Assembly (NCBI GenBank): GCA_963920705.1
Contig: OY987239.1
Coordinates: 8,062,504-8,126,503, forward strand
Length of the DNA: 64,000 nt
Reading direction: 5' to 3'
Source of the DNA: Odiellus spinosus
Lineage: Eukaryota; Arthropoda; Arachnida; Opiliones; Phalangiidae
The translations under genes and the position numbers were made by a program. Position 1 is the first letter of the stretch. Each line of letters opens with the position of its first letter. Of the stretch, positions 16,579 through 32,834 are shown piece by piece. The notes below the pieces were generated by a model that was not told the DNA's origin, ran no database searches, and saw only the letters and a program-made list of their open reading frames with translations.

Positions 16579-17583
16579 ATGGTTTTTTGCGTGATTCCGA
16601 ACTGCGGAGCATACAGTAAAAGGGCTAAAGAAATACATAAGCATGCAAACCAAGGCTTAAGTAATGGCGAGAATTTCGACTGTGATATTTTAAGCTTCTT
16701 TACTATACCAAAGAAAGAAGATTTGAGAAAGAAATGGCTCGAAGCTGTATTTTCCGAGAAAGCAGAAAACCAGGAATGTTAAGTATTTGAAAAGAAAGGA
16801 GCTTGTGTCTGTTCAAAACATTTTGATTCTTCAGACTTTAGTATATCATCCACAAAAAGGCAACGTCTTCTTCCCTATGCCATCCCGCATGTAAATTTGT
16901 TACTTTCACCTTTGAAAAAAAGGGTTAAATCTTATGGGTGTGAAAATTACGGTACAAGTACACCAAACAATGATGCCAATTATCAAGCCATGACACTACC
17001 ACTTTCTCCAATTCAAAATGTTCAAATAAGGAAGAGGCTGTTTGAACGCTCGAATCAGACTAATGAATGTCATATTAATTTAAACCAAAATGATTACACT
17101 GAAGAATTAGTAACAAAATCTGCAACGTCAACACAATCCCCAAATGAAGTCAAAGTTTTGTTTGAAAATGTTTCACCTGAACTGTCTTTAAAAGAATCGT
17201 CTACTCAAACATTAAGCGAGACCGTTTCTACGGATGTATTTGTTGTTACAAAGGAAGCATCTACCCAAGCCTCACCAATTATCAGAAAGAGAAATATTAA
17301 TTACAAAGTTAAAAATTTGAAGCGCACCCAAGGTAAATTAATTTGCCGCCTAAGAAAGAAGGTAGTAAACCTAGAATCTAAGGTTTCTAAAATGTCCGAT
17401 AATTTAATTGAATTCCGTAAGATTAAAAATGAGCAATTAAATAAACAGCTTGCCTTAATTAAAGAAGGAAGTCAGTCAAATGACTTGGCTGCTTTATTTC
17501 TCATTGAGCAAATCCTTAGTTTCAAGAAAAAAACTAAAATGTATTCTGACTATACGTTAAGAGTGTCCTCTCTACTCTTCAAG
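16579..17583 (+). pseudogene. P1 transposase, 5' part (THAP domain)
   Basis: The N-terminus has a C2CH THAP zinc-binding domain: Cys pair in FCVIPNCG, a conserved Trp in KKWLEAVF, then the Cys-x2-His of VCSKHF and a PYAIP box. P-type transposases use this domain to bind element DNA. A TAA at 16780-16782 interrupts the domain in the same frame that continues on both sides, so this is a nonsense change and not a frameshift. Downstream is a coiled-coil-like basic stretch (INYKVKNLKRTQGKLICRLR). The frame is then cut at 17583 by the Gypsy element and resumes at 27581. Confidence 0.85.
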
Positions 17584-18151
17584 TGTAACCGCTCCTTTTG
17601 TTAGGACCTTAATTGTAAGGAATTAAGAGAGGTTACAGCGATCAACCCAGTTAAAACATTGTTCGACCCCTTTCCGATTAATTTTTTCTTTTTTATTTTG
17701 GTAATTTCTTAAGAAATTGTCTCGTTTATTTAAAGACTTACCGGTTCTCGATCATCTGAGGATGAATCTTCCGATGAGGTTAAATCCTCGGCCCATCTGT
17801 TATCGCGAGACATAGTACACTCGTATATTCAAAATGAATGCTTTAATTCTTTGTTCAAAAACTACAATTAATCCCGACTCTCCTATAACGTAAGAATAAC
17901 TAGGCTTAAGCTTTCTTTTCTGACAGGAACAAATCGTTAACCCTTCTTGGGAGAGGTCGAAAAACCAACTGTCCTTTTTCTTATCACAGATCTCATTCGA
18001 AACTTTCGAGGGTTAAAAAAATAGGGGGGAAGGGGGAGAGTGACGGCCAATCTTCGAGGGATTTTTGCTTTTTTCGTTTTCAGGGTACTAATATTGGGGT
18101 AGTTAGAGATTTTTAAGGGGGCTAGACATAACTAAATTTTCGACCGTCGCA
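17584..18151 (-). repeat. Gypsy 3' LTR (element orientation)
   Basis: 568 bp, TGTAACC...GTCGCA on the + strand (TG...CA ends in either orientation). Near-identical to 27009-27576; the one difference seen is TTCTTTTCTG here against TTCTTTCCTG there. Confidence 0.97.
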
Positions 18152-18169
18152 ATCTCCCCCCCAAAAAAA
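18152..18169 (-). promoter_or_regulatory. Polypurine tract of the Gypsy element
   Basis: On the - strand a G8 run followed by AGAT lies directly against the 3' LTR, the expected place for the plus-strand primer. It is preceded by a T run. Confidence 0.7.
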
Positions 18170-18263
18170 AATATATTAGATCCATGTGAACAGTTAACAA
18201 AAACAATATTATAAGGCGTTATTAGATATATTGCATGAAAGATGTGACCGTTTCCGATGATGT

Positions 18264-19427
18264 TTATGGACAGATAGAGGGAGATCCTCCGGATGGTGGA
18301 TCTTGTGGTCCCTTCGGCTGATGTTTCGAAGGATCTATAGATTTTTCCTTTCGCTGTTTGCTTCTCAACTCGCCGATTCTCTGTCGGATCTGGTATCGAA
18401 CAGGACACCACTTTGCATAATGTTGGCCAAAGACCCCACAAGCCACGCAGGGTTCATCCTTTCGAGGGGTTTTCACTATTGGCCATCCCTTGCTATCGAT
18501 TGGGTACCAACTAACTTCTTCTCTTCGAGTCATTCCGGGCCATGCGACGGGAAAAAATTGCCTTCCAATTGGAGCCGAATACTGTAAGGGAGGAGGATGG
18601 TTCTTCGCTTCTTGAGATAGGCTTAGGAATCGGTAGGATGGCACTGGAAGAGAACCATACGCATTCTGCATTGAACTGACTGGTCTTGGCCTTGAACTAT
18701 GTTCCATTTGGGCTGGGGATACATTTTCGTCTCCTCGTGGAGTGAGGGGCATTGATGGTGTGAGTTTAGAGCTTTGACTAGGAACCATTTCGATAGGATT
18801 GTTTGGGTGTCCTCCTGAAGCATTGGTATCTTCTCTTCTAAAGTTCATGTCTAAGACGTTTGTCGGACCTGAGGGCCCGATTATAATACGTCTTGTTTCT
18901 TCTCGACCGGTAATTTTGTCGTCTCCTGGGAAAATCGAGTAAGTCATCTCGAGTGTCTGCGTCCTGAGACGGACATCGCTAGAAACCGGAAGTTGACGTA
19001 AGGTCTCCGTCATACGTGGGTCTAAATGAAAGGGTGTCTTAATACTCCTTGTTTTCGGTCGGGTAGAGGGTTCCTCAAGTGTCTTAGGTTGGGTGTCTTC
19101 TTCATGGAGAGAAGATTCGGTCGTTTCTTGTTGAGTCGATGACGTGGAAGACATAGGAGTTTCGATCGCATGGGCGCCTTCGAGGTTGAAATCATCTTCA
19201 TATTGATACATGGTCGGAATAGTGGGTTCTGTTTTTTTATTCTCGTTCTCGCAGTATCCTTGGAACCATTCCATAAGGACGCCCCTGCTTCTACTGTATT
19301 GAGCTGGTAAAACTGCGTTTGAGATAATGTCTCCACGTCCGACTCCAGTGGATATTCCTTGAGTACGCTGATCATAGTGTCCTATCACACCTTGAGTCAT
19401 CTGAAAAAGGGATTTAGTTAAGATCAT
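18264..19427 (-). CDS. Gypsy third ORF, 387 aa, zinc-knuckle protein of unknown function
   Basis: Starts 52 nt after the pol stop, in the position where errantiviruses carry env. There is no signal peptide, membrane segment or furin-like site, so an envelope is unlikely. The C-terminal part has a knuckle-like motif CVACGVFGQHYAKWC (Cys-x2-Cys-x5-His-x4-Cys, one residue longer than the retroviral Cys-x4-His spacing), followed by a basic tail (RQRIGELRSKQRKEKS). The rest is Ser/Thr/Pro-rich and probably disordered. It could be a nucleic-acid-binding accessory protein expressed by splicing or re-initiation. I do not recognise a family. Confidence 0.8.
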   Translation of the reverse strand: MILTKSLFQMTQGVIGHYDQRTQGISTGVGRGDIISNAVLPAQYSRSRGVLMEWFQGYCENENKKTEPTIPTMYQYEDDFNLEGAHAIETPMSSTSSTQQETTESSLHEEDTQPKTLEEPSTRPKTRSIKTPFHLDPRMTETLRQLPVSSDVRLRTQTLEMTYSIFPGDDKITGREETRRIIIGPSGPTNVLDMNFRREDTNASGGHPNNPIEMVPSQSSKLTPSMPLTPRGDENVSPAQMEHSSRPRPVSSMQNAYGSLPVPSYRFLSLSQEAKNHPPPLQYSAPIGRQFFPVAWPGMTRREEVSWYPIDSKGWPIVKTPRKDEPCVACGVFGQHYAKWCPVRYQIRQRIGELRSKQRKEKSIDPSKHQPKGPQDPPSGGSPSICP

Positions 19428-19479
19428 GTACTCCTTGATAGGATGGAGATTTGATTAAAAATTTAACAATAAGTTCTCC

Positions 19480-22400
19480 TTAACAGGCCGTAGGAGCTTG
19501 GGATCTGGGTTTTGCTGTAGTTATTCTCTCCCAGGGGGCACAGGCTATATGTTTTCGTCTAAATTCAAAGTTTTCTACTTTTACGTTTTCTATCTTATGT
19601 TTTTCTAGATAAGCTGTAACTTCATTGGGTGACCTTAATCGTTTTCTTTTTCCTGAAGGGGGATAATAGTAAATGTCTAGAATTGGCTTTCCAGGGTGTG
19701 TAGTGTGTCTATAACAAACTTCCCTGCACCATCCTAATCTAAATGGTAGTTCTAGATTTTTGTCTTCATCCGGTAATAATTGCGGATTTTCTCCTTCTAT
19801 GAGTTCATCGTCACTTGACTCTTGAACCATCATGCTAGAGGTATCTTCGATGATCTCTTCTACGGGACTAGGATCTTTTCGATGTCTCTTTGTAAGAATT
19901 TTTCTACCCCTTCTAATTGCAGCTTCCAATTCCGTTAGAGATGACGAGATTTCTCTTTCACGTTTTTTCGTTTTTATTCTCGTGTCACCTTCTCTTGGTT
20001 TTTCTTTTTCAGGATCTCGAATCGATTCCTGTAAAGGTATTCTGCTTCGAGATTGTTTCTGTTGCATTCGAAGGTCTTCCTGTCGTAGGTCTTCACTAGT
20101 TGAGGAACCTGTATATAGGATAGGATACTCTTCATCCCATTTTCGTCCTGAGGAAATCGAACTAGGGCTAAGATCATGGGTTTTTCGTAATGGATCCTTG
20201 ACTTCCTTAGTTGGTGACGTCGTTGGTTTATCTGTGCCATTTAGAGGTAAAGATATTTCCTTTGCTAAAGCTATTCCGATTGGAGGAATGTCTTCAATTT
20301 GTTGCGGTCTAGTTTCCTCTCGTTTTTTCAATCTTTCAGTTCGCTTGTCTCCTGTTTCATCATCACTACCAGTGGCTGAGTCCGAACTCTCTTGACGTCG
20401 TCTATGGAGTATGTGTGGGCTCTGTTCCTGAGTATTAATTGGAGGAGTCTTCTCTTCTTTCCTAATTATAGGAGATGGTATTTCATCTTCCGATGATGAA
20501 GAAGATATATATCGACGTGGTCTCTTCTTTCGTAAATGCCGACGAATACGTTCGCTTGACTCGGTGGTAGGAGCTTTTCTCCTCTCTTGAGGTGCTGTTC
20601 TTTCCAATCGTAGTGCTTGAGGCAGTGATCCAGAGGATCTTTTTTCTTCGTCTCTATCAGATATTCGAGGAGATTCTACTTCATTCTCCCTTTGTTCGGG
20701 TTCTTCAATAGGAAGAATTTCCGGTTCCGGAACAGCAGGTAAGGGCTGTTCCATTTCTTCGATTTGAATATCCTTTGCATGATATAGTTTTAATTGGGCT
20801 ATATTTATTGGTCCAATATTTCTTCCAGATATAACATCTTCCAAAACATATACTAGAGGATTTCGTTTTTCGATTATCCTATAAGGACCTGACCATTTCG
20901 GACATAATTTTGCCATTCTTCCTATATTTGCTCTTGATAATGGATGAGTCATTTTCCAGACCAGCATTCCTGGTTCAAATTCAAGATCCGCTCTTCTTCG
21001 GTCATAATACTTCTTTTGTTTAGCTTGGGCTAGTCTTGAAAATTCTTTAGTTAATTCCCATTGTTCTTGAAGATTTCTCAGAGTTTCTGATCGATCTTCG
21101 AACTCCTCTACAGGCATTCCGATGTCTAAATCCCATGGAAGCCTGGGTTCTCTTCCCATATTCAAGTAAAATGGAGAACGTCTTGTTGTATCGTGAGGAG
21201 TGGAGTTTATAGCGAAAGCTAGCGAGTTCAATGTTTCGTCCCAAGTTCGATGGTTATTTCCAACATAAATAGAGATCGTTTCTCCTAGAACTCGATTTAC
21301 TCGTTCTGTCAGATTCGATTGTGGATGATACGGTGTAGTATATATAGGTGTTATCCGGAATAACTTGCAAGTATCCTTCCATAGAGTAGAGACGAATTGA
21401 GTTCCACGATCGCTTAGTATTTGCTTGGGAGCGCCCCATCGACAGATGACCTCCTTCAGAGCTCTTGCGCATGCGTCAGCAGTCATAGCGACTAGAGGAA
21501 CCAGTTCGACGAATTTGGTCATATAATCAACGAATACTATCAAATATCGATATCCCTTTCGACTGGTCGGGAATGGACCCATTATGTCTACACCAATTTT
21601 TTCCCATGGAGCTGTTGGTTCAGTCGATTTCATTAGTCCTGGAGTACGAGTGTTTCGGATCTTATACTGCTGACACAATAGACATTCTTTGACATATTTC
21701 GTGACGTCAGCTCGTAAGGTGGGCCACCAAAATCTGGCTTCTATTTTTGCTATCGTTTTGTCTCTGCCGCGGTGACCAGCAAGGGGATGATCATGAAGCA
21801 AACGTAGAGTCTCAGGTCGGAGTCTTGTCGGAAGATATATTCGTTCAGGATGTCTGCCAGTTTCTTTTCTGTATATGAGATTATTTCGTCGTATGTACAT
21901 TCTATCTTCGGGAGCATTTTCTCTTGACAACCGTTCGATAATTTCTTCCATGGTTGGATCTTCTCGTTGTGCAGTAATGATTTCATTTCTATTGAAGATA
22001 TGGAAATTCGCATGTGGAAATGGTGGTAAAACATTCTCCCTTGGATTTTCTCTATTTTGTTCGTTGTCGGAGATTCGCAGCGATTCTTCAGAAGTTGATA
22101 ATCGGTGAAGTGGCATTACTAGTAATCCCAAAGGGGCTCTAGACAAGGCGTCTGCTACGACATTTTCTACTCCTTTCTTATGTAGGATTTTAAAATCGAA
22201 TGTCTGTAGGTACATAGCCCATTTCACCAATCTTGCCTGTGGTTCTTTAAGGGTGAATAGCCACTGTAAAGCCTTGTGGTCCGTAATTACGGTAAACGGA
22301 AGCGTTTCCAAATATGGTCTAAAATATCCAACAGCCCAATAGATCGCTAGACATTCTCGTTCGGTGTTACTGTAGTTGGATTCAGCTTTGGATAATCTTC

Positions 22401-24201
22401 GACTAGCGTATGCTATTGGCACTTCAACACTATCTTGTACTTGAGACAGCATAGCTCCTAATCCTGTACCAGAAGCGTCGGTTGTTAGGATACAAGGTAT
22501 ATCCGCTTTATACGGAGCTAAGGCAGATGCTGAAGCAATAGCATCTTTTATTTGTTGAAAAGCTTCTTCTTGATCTTCTCCCCAATGAAATGGTACATTT
22601 TTCTTCTTTAGATGGTTGATTGGAGCTACTATCTCTGAAAATTTTGGAATAAAGCGGTGATGCCAACCGGCCATGCCTAAGAATCTTTGTACTTGTTTTA
22701 GAGTTTTCGGCCGTGGAAATTCTTGAATGGCTTTTATCTTCGACGGGTCGATGAATATCCCATTTTCATTGATGATATGTCCTAGGACAATGGCCTCGGG
22801 TTTGGCAAAACGACATTTCTTTAGTTGGAGAGTTAATCCGGCATTCTTTAGGCGATTCATTACGTATTCCAGAGCGTTTAGATGCTCTTCCCATGTTTCG
22901 GACGCGATTAGGATATCATCAAGATAAACGACGATGGAAAATGGCTCGCTATCTCTGAAGATTTCATCCATTAGTCGTTGGAACGTACTCGGAGCGTTAC
23001 AAAGACCAAAGGCTAATACGTTGAATTCGTATTTACCAGCGTGGGTAATGAAGGCAGTCTTTGGTTTTGCTTCGGGAGCCAATTCGACTTGCCAATATCC
23101 GCTTTTAAGATCCAGAGCTGTAACATATTTTGGTTTTCCCATTTTGTTTAGGGTTTCTTCTATACGAGGAATCGGGTAAGGATCTTTCATTGTTACAGAG
23201 TTTACTTCTCGGAGGTCAACGCAGAACCTTGTCTTGGTTTTTCCGGTTCCGGATCCATCATCCTGTTCAATGATGACTATAGGAGAAGCCCATGGAGAGG
23301 TAGATGGTTTTATGATGCCGTCCTTTAACATTTCAGAGATATGTTCTTCGATAAGCCGTTTCTTGGCATCGCTGACTCTATAAGCTCTCTTATTTATCGG
23401 TTTCGCATCTCCTGTGTGGATTTCGTGTACAACGAGGCTTGTATGTCCTAATTTATCGCTGAAGAGATCCGGAAAGTTTAGCAGGAGATCCTTTAGTTCC
23501 TTCTTCTTCTGTTCGGGTAGCTCTGTCGCGTCGACAGCTTCAGTTACATTCTTTACCATGATTGGGGAAGGGGGTCCTTTATCTTTAGACCATCCGATGA
23601 ACTTTAAAGTTTCTCCTTGAATCGAGCAGGTTAAATTTTTGAAATCAATTTTCATTCCCCAATCTTCTAAGAAATCTTGACCAAGAATGGCATCGCATAA
23701 AAGAGATGGTACGATATGGAATTCATGGGTGAACGTCCGGTTCTTTTGATTTTCGAAAACAATTTCAAAATCCAAAAGAATGGATCCTTTAGTGAAGGTA
23801 TATCTTCCATCGCCCATGACTATGCATTCGGATATCTTCTCATAAGGGATATATGACTCGCCTCTATGTTGTCTTATTTTCATCCATTGGTCAGCACTAA
23901 TCATGGAGACTTCTGCTCCATTGTCTATCCGGGTATTTAGTCTTCCATGTTCGAAGATTGTTGTAATAATATGAGGTTTTCTTCTTTGCAAGCCCCGTCT
24001 TCGTCGTATTGCTGATAATTGATAGGTTTGGGGTCTTGAAACAGTACGACGGACTTTTGGTCGGGCTATTGATTTGGCGCGGGAGGACGGTGGCCCTGTT
24101 GTTGACCTCCCGCTCCGATGTTTTCCGGACGAGTCGTTCTTGGTATACGGACCGATGGACAGTCTCTTGAGAGATGACCTCTTCCGTTGCAGGTGAAACA
24201 A
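19480..24201 (-). CDS. Gypsy Pol (protease, RT, RNase H, integrase, MBD-like C-terminus)
   Basis: 1,573-codon frame in the -1 frame relative to gag with a 136-nt overlap, so expression is probably by ribosomal frameshift; the first codon of the frame is TTG and no independent start is needed. Approximate residues: aspartic protease with DNGA at 93-96; reverse transcriptase 290-470 with VVYLDDIL near 425; RNase H 565-690 (TTDASG, TERE, TDHK, ADAL); integrase HHCC zinc finger 800-850; DDE core with Asp near 873 (GVDIMGPF), Asp near 928 (LSDRGTQF) and Glu near 965 (TERVNRV); GPY module near 1103 (WSGPYRII). A linker of about 380 residues rich in Ser, Arg and Glu follows. Residues 1489-1549 read as a methyl-CpG-binding domain. 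The frame is intact. Confidence 0.95.
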   Translation of the reverse strand: MFHLQRKRSSLKRLSIGPYTKNDSSGKHRSGRSTTGPPSSRAKSIARPKVRRTVSRPQTYQLSAIRRRRGLQRRKPHIITTIFEHGRLNTRIDNGAEVSMISADQWMKIRQHRGESYIPYEKISECIVMGDGRYTFTKGSILLDFEIVFENQKNRTFTHEFHIVPSLLCDAILGQDFLEDWGMKIDFKNLTCSIQGETLKFIGWSKDKGPPSPIMVKNVTEAVDATELPEQKKKELKDLLLNFPDLFSDKLGHTSLVVHEIHTGDAKPINKRAYRVSDAKKRLIEEHISEMLKDGIIKPSTSPWASPIVIIEQDDGSGTGKTKTRFCVDLREVNSVTMKDPYPIPRIEETLNKMGKPKYVTALDLKSGYWQVELAPEAKPKTAFITHAGKYEFNVLAFGLCNAPSTFQRLMDEIFRDSEPFSIVVYLDDILIASETWEEHLNALEYVMNRLKNAGLTLQLKKCRFAKPEAIVLGHIINENGIFIDPSKIKAIQEFPRPKTLKQVQRFLGMAGWHHRFIPKFSEIVAPINHLKKKNVPFHWGEDQEEAFQQIKDAIASASALAPYKADIPCILTTDASGTGLGAMLSQVQDSVEVPIAYASRRLSKAESNYSNTERECLAIYWAVGYFRPYLETLPFTVITDHKALQWLFTLKEPQARLVKWAMYLQTFDFKILHKKGVENVVADALSRAPLGLLVMPLHRLSTSEESLRISDNEQNRENPRENVLPPFPHANFHIFNRNEIITAQREDPTMEEIIERLSRENAPEDRMYIRRNNLIYRKETGRHPERIYLPTRLRPETLRLLHDHPLAGHRGRDKTIAKIEARFWWPTLRADVTKYVKECLLCQQYKIRNTRTPGLMKSTEPTAPWEKIGVDIMGPFPTSRKGYRYLIVFVDYMTKFVELVPLVAMTADACARALKEVICRWGAPKQILSDRGTQFVSTLWKDTCKLFRITPIYTTPYHPQSNLTERVNRVLGETISIYVGNNHRTWDETLNSLAFAINSTPHDTTRRSPFYLNMGREPRLPWDLDIGMPVEEFEDRSETLRNLQEQWELTKEFSRLAQAKQKKYYDRRRADLEFEPGMLVWKMTHPLSRANIGRMAKLCPKWSGPYRIIEKRNPLVYVLEDVISGRNIGPINIAQLKLYHAKDIQIEEMEQPLPAVPEPEILPIEEPEQRENEVESPRISDRDEEKRSSGSLPQALRLERTAPQERRKAPTTESSERIRRHLRKKRPRRYISSSSSEDEIPSPIIRKEEKTPPINTQEQSPHILHRRRQESSDSATGSDDETGDKRTERLKKREETRPQQIEDIPPIGIALAKEISLPLNGTDKPTTSPTKEVKDPLRKTHDLSPSSISSGRKWDEEYPILYTGSSTSEDLRQEDLRMQQKQSRSRIPLQESIRDPEKEKPREGDTRIKTKKREREISSSLTELEAAIRRGRKILTKRHRKDPSPVEEIIEDTSSMMVQESSDDELIEGENPQLLPDEDKNLELPFRLGWCREVCYRHTTHPGKPILDIYYYPPSGKRKRLRSPNEVTAYLEKHKIENVKVENFEFRRKHIACAPWERITTAKPRSQAPTAC
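19553..19737 (-). other. MBD-like domain at the Pol C-terminus
   Basis: About 61 residues starting LGWCREVCYR, then LDIYYYPPSGKRKRLRS, then an NEVTAYLEKH helix and VENFEF. The GW-x-REV start, the D-x-YY-x-P-x-G turn, the R-S after the hairpin, the helix with YL and the final F-x-F follow the MBD/TAM fold in order. The Arg, Asp, Tyr and Arg-Ser positions that contact methylated CpG in MBD1/MeCP2 appear present. Function in the element is inferred. Confidence 0.85.
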
Positions 24202-26510
24202 GTAAGATTTTGTTGTAGGACTGTGGGTCTCGTCGGATATGATTGTCCTTGTGGTCGAGTAGATGAAGGAGTAATTATTCTTGGTGACCTTGATGGAACT
24301 CTTCGAGCTCCTTGAAGATTTGATTGTCCGATTCTTCTTCCAGCGGTGTTCGACTGAGTTTGTCTTGTCCTTTGTTCTACTACTGGATATGTTTGAGGAA
24401 CTTGTTGTGGTTGAATCATATATCCTGTTTGATATGGAGGTACTTGTTCAAAGGGACCAGGAGTGGTGGGTCGAACTTGTTGAAATGTATTCGATAATAC
24501 AGCCGTAGGTTGCTGATGTTGATAGTTTAACCATGATGCTCCAGGTGTTGGTAGTTGGGGATTTCCAGTAGGAGTGTATATCTGTGCTGGCAATCCTGCA
24601 TGAGGTGAACTTGATTGAGGGATTCCTGTGACAGGATATTGAATTTGAGGTGTTCCTTTGGGTAGATATATAGCTGTCGTCGAGCTTGGTATAGTTGGAG
24701 TAATTATATTCGGTATCGCTGGAGTAGGTTGAATCGTCGCCGTTGAATATTGAAGAGTCGTTGGATATTGTTGATATGGAAACTGTTGAACTGATGGTTG
24801 AGTGACATGAGTAATCATTTGACCTTGAGATGTCCACTGAGCTGGATATGTTCCGTGTTGAGGTATCGTTGTTCCATAACTAAGAGTTCTCGTTAATCCA
24901 AGACTTTCTTCTAGCTTGAGACAATGATCATGGAGATCTCCGACGGTAGCGGCACTCATGAAAGTTAGAAAGCCTCTAAATTCGGGACGAATGTTTCTCC
25001 TTATCATGTCTTGCAATTCTTTATCCGAAATTGGCGGTGTCAAACTTTGATTAATTCTCGCATAGTGGCTAAAAAATTCTTCTATAGTTTCGTTTGGACC
25101 TTGATATCTAAGGTTTAGTTCGGCTTTAGCCAAGGCTTCTTTTTGTTCCGCTCGGTAGTGTCGTTTTATTCTCCCTTCAAATTCACTCCATCCCATTGGT
25201 TGTGGTAATCCTCTGTACCATGTTTGAGCTTGAGCCTTTAATACCATAGGCAGGAGTCCCATCTTTTGATTTTCTGTTAGTTCGTTGAACTTTGCGAATT
25301 CATCTAGATCTCGTAGGAATTCTGAAACCTTTTCTTGATGTGTTCCATAGAAAACTAGTCGGGCAGGTGGTTCCTTTAAGCTTCGGCCTTTATTCTCCTT
25401 CATGACTTTGGTCATGGTTCTCAGCATCGATGTTGATCGAGGAGATAAAGGTGGAGATAATTGTCCTTGACCTTGACCTTGTCCTGGTGTTCCTTGTATA
25501 GGAGATATTCCTGGTATTCCTGTTGGTTTTGGAGCTGAAGGAAATTGTGAAGGAGGACCCTGTGGATAATGAGCTTGAGATGGGAATAATCCTGGTTGGG
25601 ATTGAGCTGAGTATACTTGTTGTTGAGGGAATGGCACTTGCGGTGGATACCATCCTTGATAGGCTTGTGCAGGAGTCGATGTAGGTGGTCCTTGGTAGAA
25701 AGTACTCGATGCTTGAGGATTAAATCCAAGAGGATATGTAAATTGCGTTGTTATTGGTTGATATTGAGGTTGTATTAAGCTCGGAGTTTGGTATTGAGCT
25801 TGAGGTGGAAGTTGACCTTGAGGTTGTCTAAGTGTTGTACTTATGGGAGGAATTTGTCCGTATCTTGCAGCGGGATTAATAGTTTGTGTAATTGATGGTG
25901 GTTGGAGTACTTGTGGACCCGAAATTCCAGAAGCGCCTTGAGTCATCGTAGGACAAAGTGATATACCGGATGGATGAATTGAAGGCGTGGTCACAATTCC
26001 AGTTGCCATAGTAGTTGTAGTGGTTGTTGTTAATATTGTTTGTAGTGAGCCAATAGGGTTGGCATGCCTAGAGGCATTAGGTATAGACATACCTAAACCC
26101 AATTGGATGTTCCCTACTGTACTACCAGACGGTAATCCCATCATGGGAGTTGGTAAAATTGGAGAACCTATACTCCCTGTAGGGCTTTTCAAACTTGGAA
26201 GTGATTTAACCCGTATTAAACGTCTATGAATCCTTGGTGGGGAACTTAAAGCCGATATATTTGCTACTGAACTTTGAGGACTTGTTATCCCCACTCCAAT
26301 TAATGGTGGACTTACTACCGGTGCATGTGGGGATAGTGGAGGACTTATTACAGGTGTATGAGGGGATATAGGTGTAGGTGTAGTTGGTACAATTGTAGTA
26401 GGTGGAGAAGACGTCGCCATAATAGAATTTCCCTTATTTAATTGTAACCTTGATGGGCGTATAATATTTTGTATATTGTAAGTAGTTACAAGGGGAGATA
26501 TCTCTATCAA
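24066..26510 (-). CDS. Gypsy Gag, 814 aa
   Basis: The N-terminal ~370 residues are a low-complexity Pro/Thr/Gln/Ser-rich region (PQAQYQTPSLIQPQYQP). The retrotransposon capsid domain is about residues 380-510 (LVFYGTHQEKVSEFLRDLDE, QTWYRGLP, FFSHYARINQ). A nucleocapsid CCHC knuckle, CFTCNGRGHLSRDC, sits at 771-784 and is followed by the pol overlap. The long disordered N-terminus is unusual for Gypsy Gag. It packages the element RNA into cytoplasmic particles. Confidence 0.93.
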   Translation of the reverse strand: MIEISPLVTTYNIQNIIRPSRLQLNKGNSIMATSSPPTTIVPTTPTPISPHTPVISPPLSPHAPVVSPPLIGVGITSPQSSVANISALSSPPRIHRRLIRVKSLPSLKSPTGSIGSPILPTPMMGLPSGSTVGNIQLGLGMSIPNASRHANPIGSLQTILTTTTTTTMATGIVTTPSIHPSGISLCPTMTQGASGISGPQVLQPPSITQTINPAARYGQIPPISTTLRQPQGQLPPQAQYQTPSLIQPQYQPITTQFTYPLGFNPQASSTFYQGPPTSTPAQAYQGWYPPQVPFPQQQVYSAQSQPGLFPSQAHYPQGPPSQFPSAPKPTGIPGISPIQGTPGQGQGQGQLSPPLSPRSTSMLRTMTKVMKENKGRSLKEPPARLVFYGTHQEKVSEFLRDLDEFAKFNELTENQKMGLLPMVLKAQAQTWYRGLPQPMGWSEFEGRIKRHYRAEQKEALAKAELNLRYQGPNETIEEFFSHYARINQSLTPPISDKELQDMIRRNIRPEFRGFLTFMSAATVGDLHDHCLKLEESLGLTRTLSYGTTIPQHGTYPAQWTSQGQMITHVTQPSVQQFPYQQYPTTLQYSTATIQPTPAIPNIITPTIPSSTTAIYLPKGTPQIQYPVTGIPQSSSPHAGLPAQIYTPTGNPQLPTPGASWLNYQHQQPTAVLSNTFQQVRPTTPGPFEQVPPYQTGYMIQPQQVPQTYPVVEQRTRQTQSNTAGRRIGQSNLQGARRVPSRSPRIITPSSTRPQGQSYPTRPTVLQQNLTCFTCNGRGHLSRDCPSVRIPRTTRPENIGAGGQQQGHRPPAPNQ

Positions 26511-27008
26511 TTGTTCTCCAGAATTGTTTGGTTGTAGTCTATCCCAATTAATACTAGTCTCAGACCCAGATGTGAAAGAAGGAATTCTATCCTGTGGGGT
26601 GGTAAAAGCTAAATTCCTATTTGGTGACGTCAGTGTTAGGCCAAAATAATATTTTCGTTTATTAAAAAGTGTTTGAATAACCTGCTATTAATAGGAAAAT
26701 ATTTCTCAAAATTGAGTGTTTAATTCATCTAATTAAGTATTGTTAAAAAGGTTTTATAATTATTAATATCAAAATCAAAAGTAATAGATCAAAAAGATAA
26801 ATTCGTGGAAATAAGGAATTCCTCAAAAGAATAGGCGAGATAACGCCTATCACCACCCCCACCAAAAAAGACGGGCTAAAAGGGGCGAACGCCGAAAAAA
26901 AAAACGAAGCCGAGGTCGGGGAGGCCAAGATGGCGGACGGGGTAGGCAAAGACAAGAAAAAGGCGAAAAAATGGCGAAGGGAAAGGGGGACTGTCACGGC
27001 ACCAATTC
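26511..27008 (-). promoter_or_regulatory. Gypsy leader and primer-binding site
   Basis: Untranslated leader between the 5' LTR and gag. Four nucleotides inside the LTR, on the - strand, is TGGTGCCGTGACAGTCCC (26987-27004), which has the TGG start of a tRNA-primed site. I could not assign the tRNA. The 84-codon ORF at 26743-26997 on the same strand lies in the leader and is unsupported. Confidence 0.75.
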
Positions 27009-27576
27009 TGTAACCGCTCCTTTTGTTAGGACCTTAATTGTAAGGAATTAAGAGAGGTTACAGCGATCAACCCAGTTAAAACATTGTTCGACCCCTTTCC
27101 GATTAATTTTTTCTTTTTTATTTTGGTAATTTCTTAAGAAATTGTCTCGTTTATTTAAAGACTTACCGGTTCTCGATCATCTGAGGATGAATCTTCCGAT
27201 GAGGTTAAATCCTCGGCCCATCTGTTATCGCGAGACATAGTACACTCGTATATTCAAAATGAATGCTTTAATTCTTTGTTCAAAAACTACAATTAATCCC
27301 GACTCTCCTATAACGTAAGAATAACTAGGCTTAAGCTTTCTTTCCTGACAGGAACAAATCGTTAACCCTTCTTGGGAGAGGTCGAAAAACCAACTGTCCT
27401 TTTTCTTATCACAGATCTCATTCGAAACTTTCGAGGGTTAAAAAAATAGGGGGGAAGGGGGAGAGTGACGGCCAATCTTCGAGGGATTTTTGCTTTTTTC
27501 GTTTTCAGGGTACTAATATTGGGGTAGTTAGAGATTTTTAAGGGGGCTAGACATAACTAAATTTTCGACCGTCGCA
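27009..27576 (-). repeat. Gypsy 5' LTR (element orientation)
   Basis: 568-bp partner of 17584-18151. It should hold the element promoter. Followed on the + strand by target duplication CAAG and then the continuing P1 transposase sequence. Confidence 0.97.
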
Positions 27577-27580
27577 CAAG

Positions 27581-28898
27581 AAAAGCCCTTGCGCTTATAA
27601 TTTTTTAAGGGATATGAAAATTTTACATCTACCTCATAGAATCACTCTAAGGAGATACATTGGGCACGCTTCTGGAGAACATGGAGTTACCAGCTTGGTA
27701 AAAGAAAGGCTGAAAGTAGAGTACGAGAAACTTACTGATGACCGCGAAAGGTATGGATCCTTGGTTTTTGATGAAATGGCAATACGATCAAAACTACTTT
27801 ATGATCGCAACATGGACACTTTCTTCGGGGAAACCACTCTCTCAGCAGCCAATGGAGTAGGTGACACCCTAGCATCGCATTTATTATGCTTTATCTTTCA
27901 CGGCCTAAGTACAAGTATCCGTATCCCCGTTGCATATTTTTTCACAGCCAACCTTACTTCAGATCAACTTTACTCCATAATTCTACAAGTGATAGTAACA
28001 CGAGACGATCAGGGGGTTACAATGATCTAGGAGATGTAAGATCGTGTATACTATCTCTTGAACACACACTAAAAATCGGAATCATTAAGGCATCTTCAAA
28101 TTCAAATGTCAGCGTTGGCAAGAAGTCTGACTGCGAAGGCCTACAAATTGTAACTTCAGGTATTTTATTTTTTGTTTAAAACTTTTAAACTGTGACTCAT
28201 ATGTAATGTTTTTGTACTTTGACAGCTGGAAGTGATAAACGAGTACTCAGAAGTGAAGTGGATCCGAAAAAAAAAATACGAACACAAAATGTTGTTGATC
28301 TACCAGGATATTTGAAAAGAATTCTTAACCGCATGGAATGCTTGACCGGAAAAGGTATTTTAAATTAAAAATTGTATTGACTTAAAGTGCAGATAATAAC
28401 TACAAGCGTGTGTAAAAATTTCATACAGAAACATCGCAAATATCTATTCGAAGTTGCACACTTGCTCACGTTGGCGGATATCTAGTCAAAATTGCTGAAG
28501 AAAATTCAACTTGCGAGGACTACTTGGGAAAGTTAGTTTTGTCAGAACACGAGATGAAATTAAAGATTCACACCCTAATAGAAGCGCAAGATCGAGGGGG
28601 TTTAAAATATCCTAGTGATTTTTTTGTTTGTTTAATTGGACTTGTGTTAGACTTTGTACAAATGTCCCTTAACTTAGTTCCCCGCCAACAAACCCTAACA
28701 ACATACATGGGAATTATTTTACCTTATTTTTCAAAGCCATTAAAATGTAAATGTGATAACCCAAAACTACCCAAAGTCATTTTAGAGAAGTTCCTAAGAC
28801 CTCTTTTGCACAATCATGCCAAAGAAGTGACAGATCAAAAACAAAAGATTAAAAAGACGAAAGGAAAACCATTATCCCGAAAGGTTTTGAGGGTATAA
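27581..28898 (+). pseudogene. P1 transposase, 3' part, internally deleted
   Basis: Resumes the frame broken at 17583. It shows the LHLPHRITLRRYI and VFDEMAIRSKLLYD blocks (first catalytic Asp region) and PVAYFFTANL. Near 28000 the frame shifts and the sequence jumps to RRSGGYNDLGD, a block that normally follows the last catalytic acid. The middle of the DDE domain is therefore missing, roughly 250 residues by comparison with P2. Two introns appear to follow (acceptors near 28226 and 28430), then the C-terminal region containing HVGGYLVKIA and DRGGLKYPSDFF, ending at 28898. Deleted P copies of this type are normally mobilised only in trans. Confidence 0.8.
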
Positions 28899-31664: not shown

Positions 31665-31736
31665 CTTCTCGCTGTCACGTCAACCATATCAATCTTTCAT
31701 CGCCGTGTAGAACTGTTTAGTTAGGAAAGTTTAACT

Positions 31737-32834
31737 ATGAAATTCGTCAGTTTTTTAACAGTTATCGCCATAGTGGAAGTAGTGAGGTGCGTCTCTGAGC
31801 AATTAGATTCCAGTTCATCGCGTTTGGACCCTCTATGGACTGACGTACAACTGACGGGGAAGCATGTCCGTATCGCCAAGAAACCTCTTCAAGTCGTAGT
31901 TAAGCCTTGTACCTCGGGATGTGACTGTCCAGCCAAGCCGTGTCTGCCTAGTTGTTGCTGCGAGGATTGCGTCACTCAGATCCCGATTCATAAGAAAATT
32001 ACAACGACGAAGATGCCCATTCCAGTTACACACAAACCTTGTCACAAAGGTTGTAATTGCGATGTAGATTGTACTTGTCACCATCGTACTAAACCTTGCC
32101 ATTCGAGCTGTTGTTGTGATGAATGTACACCTGTGACCACAACGACTCCCAAGCCAACCACGACGACGTTGAAGCCGACGACAACAACGACTCCCAAGCC
32201 AACCACGACGACGTTAAAGCCGACGACAACAACGACTCCCAAGCCAACCACGACGACGTTGAAGCCGACGACAACGACTCCCAAGCCAACCACGACGACG
32301 TTGAAGCCGACGACAACGACTCCCATGCCAACCACGACGACGTTGAAGCCGACGACAACGACTCCCATGCCAACCACGACGACGTTGAAGCCGACGACAA
32401 CGACTCCCAAGCCAACCACGACGACGTTGAAGCCGACGACAACGACTCCCAAGCCAACCACGACGACGTTGAAGCCGACGACAACGACTCCCAAGCCAAC
32501 CACGACGACGTTGAAGCCGACGACAACGACTCCCAAGCCAACCACGACGACGTTGAAGCCAGTTACAACAACGACTCCAAAGCCGATCACCTGGAAACCA
32601 ACTCATAAACCGCATCTCACGACAACCGAAGAGCCTCACACTCCTGTCAAATGCGTTGGTCTTAAAAAAGAGGTCTGTTGTCCGGCTGAGAATGGTCTGA
32701 TGCCAGTTTACATCGCGCATCACAAGTTCCCTTCACTGTTCTTTAAGTGTTCTTGGGGTTTGGCACACTTAATGAAGTGTCCCGCGAAGACCGTCTTCGA
32801 CTCTAATTTAAACGTTTGCGTCACGAAGATTTAA
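31737..32834 (+). CDS. Secreted Thr/Pro-rich protein with cysteine clusters and a C-terminal chitin-binding-like module
   Basis: Single-exon gene, 365 aa. Residues 1-20 are a signal peptide (MKFVSFLTVIAIVEVVRC...). Two cysteine-dense segments follow (CTSGCDCPAKPCLPSCCCEDC-type and a second ending HSSCCCDEC), then about ten copies of a 14-residue PKPTTTTLKPTTTT unit likely to be heavily O-glycosylated. The C-terminus (CVGLKKEVCCP... FFKCSWGLAHLMKCP... FDSNLNVC) has the spacing and aromatic residues of a peritrophin-type (CBM14) domain, though shortened. It is probably extracellular, in cuticle, peritrophic matrix or mucus. A TATA box precedes it. The Cys clusters are unusual for peritrophins. 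Confidence 0.85.
   Translation: MKFVSFLTVIAIVEVVRCVSEQLDSSSSRLDPLWTDVQLTGKHVRIAKKPLQVVVKPCTSGCDCPAKPCLPSCCCEDCVTQIPIHKKITTTKMPIPVTHKPCHKGCNCDVDCTCHHRTKPCHSSCCCDECTPVTTTTPKPTTTTLKPTTTTTPKPTTTTLKPTTTTTPKPTTTTLKPTTTTPKPTTTTLKPTTTTPMPTTTTLKPTTTTPMPTTTTLKPTTTTPKPTTTTLKPTTTTPKPTTTTLKPTTTTPKPTTTTLKPTTTTPKPTTTTLKPVTTTTPKPITWKPTHKPHLTTTEEPHTPVKCVGLKKEVCCPAENGLMPVYIAHHKFPSLFFKCSWGLAHLMKCPAKTVFDSNLNVCVTKI
32143..32575 (+). repeat. 42-45-bp coding minisatellite
   Basis: Encodes the PKPTTTTLKPTTTT repeats. The regular ACG/AAG/CCN codon pattern keeps four other frames open for 150-170 codons; these are shadows. Confidence 0.9.

Follow-up and report, generated by a model that had tools for sequence, protein, structure and literature searches.

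A methyl-CpG-binding-type domain at the C-terminus of Pol in a group of Gypsy retrotransposons of the harvestman Odiellus spinosus

Here, I show that a Gypsy LTR retrotransposon of the harvestman Odiellus spinosus encodes a Pol protein ending in a domain of the methyl-CpG-binding (MBD) family, that the fusion is spread through the genome, that the residues known to contact methylated CpG are conserved in it, that it evolves under purifying selection, and that the host genome contains DNMT1 exons. The element lies in a stretch of 64,000 nucleotides (the window). As judged from sequence, an MBD fused to Gypsy Pol and common to a whole group of elements is supported. The explanation that I regard as probable, albeit with considerable reservation, is that a Gypsy lineage took a host-type MBD onto the Pol C-terminus, behind integrase, and kept it through a long diversification; carried on a long charged linker, the domain would bind methylated CpG, and after reverse transcription the MBD-bearing integrase would hold the integration complex on methylated chromatin, thereby biasing the landing of new copies towards methylated DNA.

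The element, the features of its target and their coordinates in the window are as follows.

16783..17583, plus strand: target, left part of a THAP / P-element-like transposase frame (THAP 21.9 bits, under the cut-off of 23.9)
17580..17583, no strand: target-site duplication, left copy, CAAG (4 bp)
17584-27576, minus strand: full Gypsy LTR retrotransposon, 9993 bp, with LTRs, target duplication, Gag and Pol frames
17584..18151, minus strand: 3' LTR, 568 bp, TG...CA on the plus strand, 567/568 identical to the other LTR
18152..18165, minus strand: likely polypurine tract, a G-run on the minus strand adjoining the 3' LTR (function predicted from sequence)
18264..19454, minus strand: ORF3, downstream of Pol, 396 aa between stops (zf-CCHC_6 near its end, E=0.21, under cut-off)
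19480..24447, minus strand: Pol, an open frame of 1655 aa between stops, or of 1573 aa when counted from the first TTG (24201)
19552..19767, minus strand: methyl-CpG-binding domain (PF01429) at the Pol C-terminus, Pol residues 1479-1550 of 1573
19768..20763, minus strand: charged linker, GPY module to MBD
21322..21615, minus strand: integrase core (rve, Pfam)
21658..21831, minus strand: integrase zinc-binding domain (Integrase_H2C2, Pfam)
22198..22584, minus strand: RNase H (Pfam)
22771..23241, minus strand: reverse transcriptase (RVT_1, Pfam)
24066..26684, minus strand: Gag, an open frame of 872 aa that includes a CCHC knuckle and a region resembling Retrotrans_gag
26989..27004, minus strand: possible primer-binding site (TGGTGCC..., from sequence), adjoining the 5' LTR
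27009..27576, minus strand: 5' LTR, 568 bp (from LTR pair comparison)
27577..27580, no strand: target-site duplication, right copy, CAAG
27581..28030, plus strand: target, right part of the THAP / P-element-like transposase frame (TNP-like_RNaseH_N 73.1 bits, over cut-off; Tnp_P_element 14.8, under)

The element has the Ty3/Gypsy characters, namely the RT-RNaseH-integrase order, LTRs, a short target duplication and a CCHC Gag. In Pol, the Pfam order is RVT_1, RNase H, Integrase_H2C2, rve and then the MBD, in a single open frame; it is not that of Copia, for RVT_1 precedes rve and RVT_2 gave no match. Pfam likewise finds no chromodomain (PF00385) in this Pol at E<=0.001. The GPY module was seen by eye, the Pfam model SH3_Tf2-1 scoring there 19.7 bits, under its cut-off of 30. 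In Gag, zf-CCHC exceeds its cut-off (26.2 bits) and Retrotrans_gag remains under it (21.3 against 24.1 bits). The first 180 residues of ORF3 match at 98-99% in the sibling copies L033 and L034, and weakly (23-34%) in L035, L038, L039, L040 and L045.

The terminal domain matches PF01429 with 44.6 bits, about twice the cut-off of 21 (E=1.1e-11), and with 50 bits (E=8.1e-11) in the search of the whole genome. A first-pass annotation of the window, made from the sequence alone, had read a Gypsy Pol ending in an MBD in one open frame, and had placed the domain at 19553-19737; both readings hold, the position agreeing with the Pfam span on the minus strand, and the lack of an HMM match, which would have spoken against them, did not occur. 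The near-identical LTR pair that it described is also there, with 568 bp each, a single mismatch, TG...CA ends and the CAAG duplication. Its linker of about 380 residues was an overestimate, the distance between GPY module and MBD being 337 residues in the near-identical copy L033. An AlphaFold2 model of the window MBD, built on a two-row alignment with P0122 (see below) as the only second row, reached a pLDDT of 47, too poor for fold comparison.

The element landed inside another transposon, a THAP/P-element-like transposase frame: once it is removed in silico, the rebuilt empty site carries an unbroken frame of 416 codons across the insertion point, with the TNP-like RNaseH match. Elsewhere in the window (31725-32834, plus strand), an ORF of 369 aa is in places rich in cysteine and has a long tandem region of threonine and proline, and by eye it is perhaps a secreted or cuticle protein.

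The genome searched for relatives comprises 443 Mb in 286 contigs, and the COX1 on its contig C286 shares 98-99% identity with COX1 of phalangiid harvestmen, including Oligolophus. With PF01429, the best 150 of 415 candidates were scored and 150/150 were over the cut-off; 57 of them were read by eye, yielding 31 Copia-like, 24 Gypsy-like and 2 host matches (which I take, by eye, to be BAZ2 and SETDB1), where labels were assigned from the MBD and its adjoining sequence. The notion that the high-scoring matches are all siblings of the window element is ruled out by the 31 Copia among the 57 read. Of the 24 Gypsy copies, 12 have integrase end and MBD in one open frame; the remaining 12 have a broken frame or were covered over too short a stretch, and their label derives from MBD and tail. 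Queried with the window's own MBD (best 150 of 328 candidates scored), the genome gave host BAZ2 as the last match.

How the MBD is distributed over the Gypsy relatives was read from the reverse transcriptase, for which a 180-residue piece was used as query and the best 150 of 1143 candidates were scored. An MBD match on the same strand, 1.5-4.5 kb downstream, follows 70 of these 150 RT relatives. By RT identity, the proportion is 18/22 at 94-100%, 4/7 at 86-93%, 13/22 at 78-85%, 14/26 at 66-77%, 4/4 at 60-65%, 15/43 at 51-59% and 2/26 at 45-50%. The other 80 scored RT matches have no MBD match within the best 150 of 328 MBD candidates, and they may be broken copies or carry MBDs beyond the best 150 scored; since only the best 150 candidates of each list were scored, absence in this pairing is weak evidence. 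A narrower MBD list, paired at 1-7.5 kb, gave 41/150 and missed divergent MBDs. Thirteen open frames of 1564-1706 aa include the MBD match without a stop, among them L036 (C183:659212), which has lost the tail behind the MBD, and PF01429 is also over cut-off in two further Gypsy lineages (L035 and L052). MBD-Gypsy elements are, then, a large and diverse group in the harvestman genome. A related Gypsy family without the domain exists alongside: its 17 near-identical RT matches are 50% identical to the window RT and are followed by an MBD match in 0/17, their open frame being 1202 aa in 16 and 856 aa in one; in one copy read to the stop (L071, L072), Pol ends about 80 residues past the GPY module with no MBD. 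Two peculiar arrangements were noted among the copies. At C9:891980-894733, a Pol relative sits within an open frame of 3823 aa, perhaps with Gag, Pol and more in one frame, and at C2:28883375-28917296 Gypsy-MBD copies seemingly form a mirror-image (inverted) duplication, as judged from match coordinates.

Outside this genome, Pol residues 780-1573 retrieved 117 listed proteins (7985 candidates scored). The best, P0122, comes from another sample; it has 1228 aa, is 40% identical and again carries the MBD behind integrase (PF01429 27.1 bits, E=3.1e-6). It is the only one among the 117 listed matches with a precomputed MBD. Other Pol relatives on the list bear what are presumably chromodomains, going by precomputed Pfam accessions, and on the same basis Gypsy Pols of other samples presumably carry PWWP (P0145), PHD (P0189, P0229) or SET (P0197) domains. 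The shorter query of Pol residues 1455-1573 gave 33 candidates, none of them a homologue at E<=1e-3. With many genomic copies and P0122 at hand, the fusion is shared by a whole group, and the confinement to a single copy that had been named as grounds for rejecting it does not apply.

Whether the domain reads methylation is best approached through its contact residues. PMC8811898 reports R111, D121, Y123 and R133 of MeCP2 as essential for mCpG recognition. Among 28 distinct Gypsy MBDs (30 rows, L063 and L065-L070 having been added for this count only), 25 keep all five contacts considered here (these four and S134, MeCP2 numbering): R111, D121 and S134 in 28/28, Y123 in 27/28 (one F), and R133 in 26/28 (one H, one L). 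The set of five is likewise complete in the window family (row L033, with an MBD identical to that of the window), P0122, MBD4, MeCP2 and MBD2, and in the Copia-MBD elements of the same genome the mCpG contacts are kept in most rows. Host BAZ2, by contrast, has E, C and N at D121, Y123 and S134, and host SETDB1 has Q, F and N.

By sequence profile, the Gypsy MBD belongs to the same family as the BAZ2A/BAZ2B TAM domains and the MBDs of MBD4 and MBD2. At E<=0.01, a profile of 16 Gypsy MBDs matched 33 solved sequences, every one named as an MBD or TAM domain protein, in the order BAZ2B (3.2e-11), BAZ2A, MBD4 (5.6e-9), MBD2 (9.1e-8), MeCP2 and MBD1. The precedence of BAZ2B over MBD4 and MBD2, repeated with the window MBD alone (BAZ2B first, 5.9e-6; MBD2 0.016), speaks for a general DNA (or RNA) binder of the TAM type, as in BAZ2A/B, that would aid integration or packaging without reading methylation. 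The BAZ2 TAM domain is not known to be methyl-specific. The tree described below also counts towards this alternative and against tethering, for a split with support 98/94 places the Gypsy MBDs with the domains of BAZ2 and SETDB1, which are without the mCpG contacts. On the other side, the very contacts absent from BAZ2 and SETDB1 are kept in nearly all Gypsy MBDs, and the divergent P0122 matches MBD4 best (6.9e-6; BAZ2B 0.052), such that I consider a methylation-blind binder unlikely. The Gypsy domain looks BAZ2-like in its frame and methyl-reader-like at its DNA surface, the latter because it keeps contact residues that BAZ2 and SETDB1 replace. Binding of methyl-CpG is nonetheless supported only indirectly, by the kept contacts, by purifying selection and by the host DNMT1.

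As to the origin of the domain, the MBD tree (49 rows, 81 columns) is weakly resolved; near-copies and broken copies were left out of it, among them L002-L008, L015, L016, L021, L024, L027, L056 and L063. Its 98/94 split sets Copia, MBD2, MBD4 and MeCP2 against Gypsy, BAZ2 and SETDB1, and on the best tree the Gypsy rows require two changes rather than one. AU tests rejected neither a single Gypsy clade (p=0.337), nor Gypsy with Copia (p=0.141), nor Gypsy with MBD2/MBD4/MeCP2 (p=0.148). Host MBD2/3 was not found among the matches read, in which host sampling is thin.

A further possibility is that Gypsy received its MBD from a Copia-MBD element and not from a host gene, with tethering as in the favoured explanation. 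Potential donors abound, since Copia-MBD elements (L009-L028) are abundant and diverse in the same genome, some pairs being 99% identical; the clade of Gypsy with Copia stands unrejected, and an alignment of the two MBD profiles has a probability of 99% and an identity of 35%. Yet the best tree parts the two sets of MBDs, the Copia profile lies nearest to MBD2 (3.2e-19; BAZ2B 2e-8) and the Gypsy profile nearest to BAZ2B, and the domain is placed differently in Pol. Moreover, a tail motif P-[WFY]-E follows most Gypsy MBDs read (it is missing in L036 and L070) and occurs in none of the aligned Copia MBD rows; BAZ2 carries a faintly similar stretch at that position. A handover from Copia appears improbable, about as much so as the TAM-type binder. 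Separate capture by Gypsy and Copia is favoured, though not proven, on the basis of the tree, the place in Pol and the tail motif. That two unrelated LTR superfamilies each took an MBD from a different host source, both reading methylation for insertion and the Gypsy domain sitting where chromoviruses have their chromodomain, would be a case of convergence, plausible if a little short of likely.

The host appears equipped for DNA methylation: C16 carries, at a distance of 10 kb, a DNMT1-RFD exon and a DNA-methylase exon, the latter presumably of DNMT1, and a second methylase exon is presumably of DNMT2 (by eye, from motifs). CpG observed/expected is 1.11 in the window, 0.91 in the element, and 1.03 and 0.86 in its 2-kb flanks; the sole insertion site read, in a P-like transposon, is accordingly not clearly of the methylated type, a finding against tethering. 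When copies are compared, CpG transitions show no overall excess, the ratio being 0.97 over 15 pairs (8 Gypsy, 7 Copia) and 0.90 in the Gypsy pairs, and it reaches 1.87 in the 7 youngest pairs of both kinds (>=98.8% identity; 38/2128 vs 70/7342 sites). Given no overall excess, germ-line methylation of the element copies would be weak at most. Methylation of these elements, if present, being sparse, a tether would guide insertion to methylated DNA elsewhere; the landing sites in this host would probably be gene bodies or a few methylated loci, for the copies show little CpG decay.

The same figures bear on another alternative, in which the MBD affects expression and not targeting: on methylated copies or host repressor sites it would shield the element or compete with host MBD proteins, thus easing silencing. 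DNMT1 exons in the host and the existence of recent insertions are consistent with this, but the scarcity of signs of methylation on the copies tells against it, and the place behind integrase, like that of chromodomains, favours a role in integration. I regard an effect on expression as quite unlikely.

Selection along Pol was compared within four lineages, A (the window family, L033, L034), B (L035, L037-L040, L045), C (L036, L041, L042, L046, L047) and D (L043, L044). The dN/dS of MBD and tail is 0.03-0.33 in 15 of 18 Gypsy copy pairs with finite dS, and in 14 pairs within A-D the linker shows 0.22-0.57 as against 0.03-0.33 for the MBD (13 finite), values to be read as rough, for several dS exceed 1 (saturated) and pairs are not independent. 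A few pairs barely differ between the two regions, as L036/L041 (MBD 0.33, linker 0.36). Pooled crudely over five pairs, without correction, the ratio is lowest in the MBD (0.33), followed by the integrase end (0.42) and the linker (0.50). The MBD is under purifying selection. A functionless passenger, kept by chance in recently copied elements, could account for the replacement of the second Arg finger by H or L in two of the 28 distinct Gypsy MBDs, but it is scarcely credible given the many lineages carrying the MBD, a dN/dS mostly below that of the adjoining linker, and the invariant contact residues.

Divergence climbs along Pol. Between L033 and L037, dS goes from 0.30 at the integrase end through 0.84 in the linker up to 1.85 in the MBD. 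Copies whose RTs are 95-99% identical have MBDs that share only 72-78% identity with that of the window. Such a pattern would be explained by template switching between lineages, i.e. recombination exchanging the 3' part of Pol.

Chromoviruses are Gypsy elements with a chromodomain after integrase, acting in target choice. The window element is akin to them in bearing a domain of the chromatin-reader type at the Pol C-terminus, behind integrase, but chromoviruses carry a reader of histone methylation, and the window Pol a domain of the DNA-methylation type. De Mendoza, Pflueger and Lister published in 2019 (Genome Res 29:1277) an arthropod retrotransposon family that captured a functional MBD; a role in target choice is reported for it, and the family is reportedly of the Copia kind, which fits the Copia-MBD elements seen in the harvestman genome. 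Both that family and the window element are LTR retrotransposons of arthropods that carry an MBD and for which a role in target choice is proposed. In this genome, however, the Copia-MBD elements encode Gag and Pol in a single frame and have the MBD after integrase and before RT (Pfam, 3/3 scanned), whereas the window element has the RT-RH-IN order and a C-terminal MBD past a long linker, set apart in the best tree; being Gypsy by domain order, it is not a member of the Copia-MBD family. The principle of MBD capture is hence already published for another arthropod retrotransposon family, which the window element resembles. The first-pass annotation knew of no such targeting described for Gypsy elements, and this stands, no Gypsy-MBD fusion having been found in the open-access literature searched (which misses most subscription journals). 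What is new, as far as searched, is an MBD fusion in Gypsy, at the Pol C-terminus after integrase, grouping apart from the Copia MBDs.

To sum up, these observations suggest that MBD capture by LTR retrotransposons is not limited to one family and has also occurred in Gypsy, at the chromodomain position. If the tethering explanation is true, the MBD would do for these Gypsy elements what chromodomains do for chromoviruses and the MBD for the other arthropod family. Since MBD-Copia, MBD-Gypsy and MBD-less Gypsy elements coexist in one genome with DNMT1 exons, their insertion sites can be directly compared, three ways, against one methylome.
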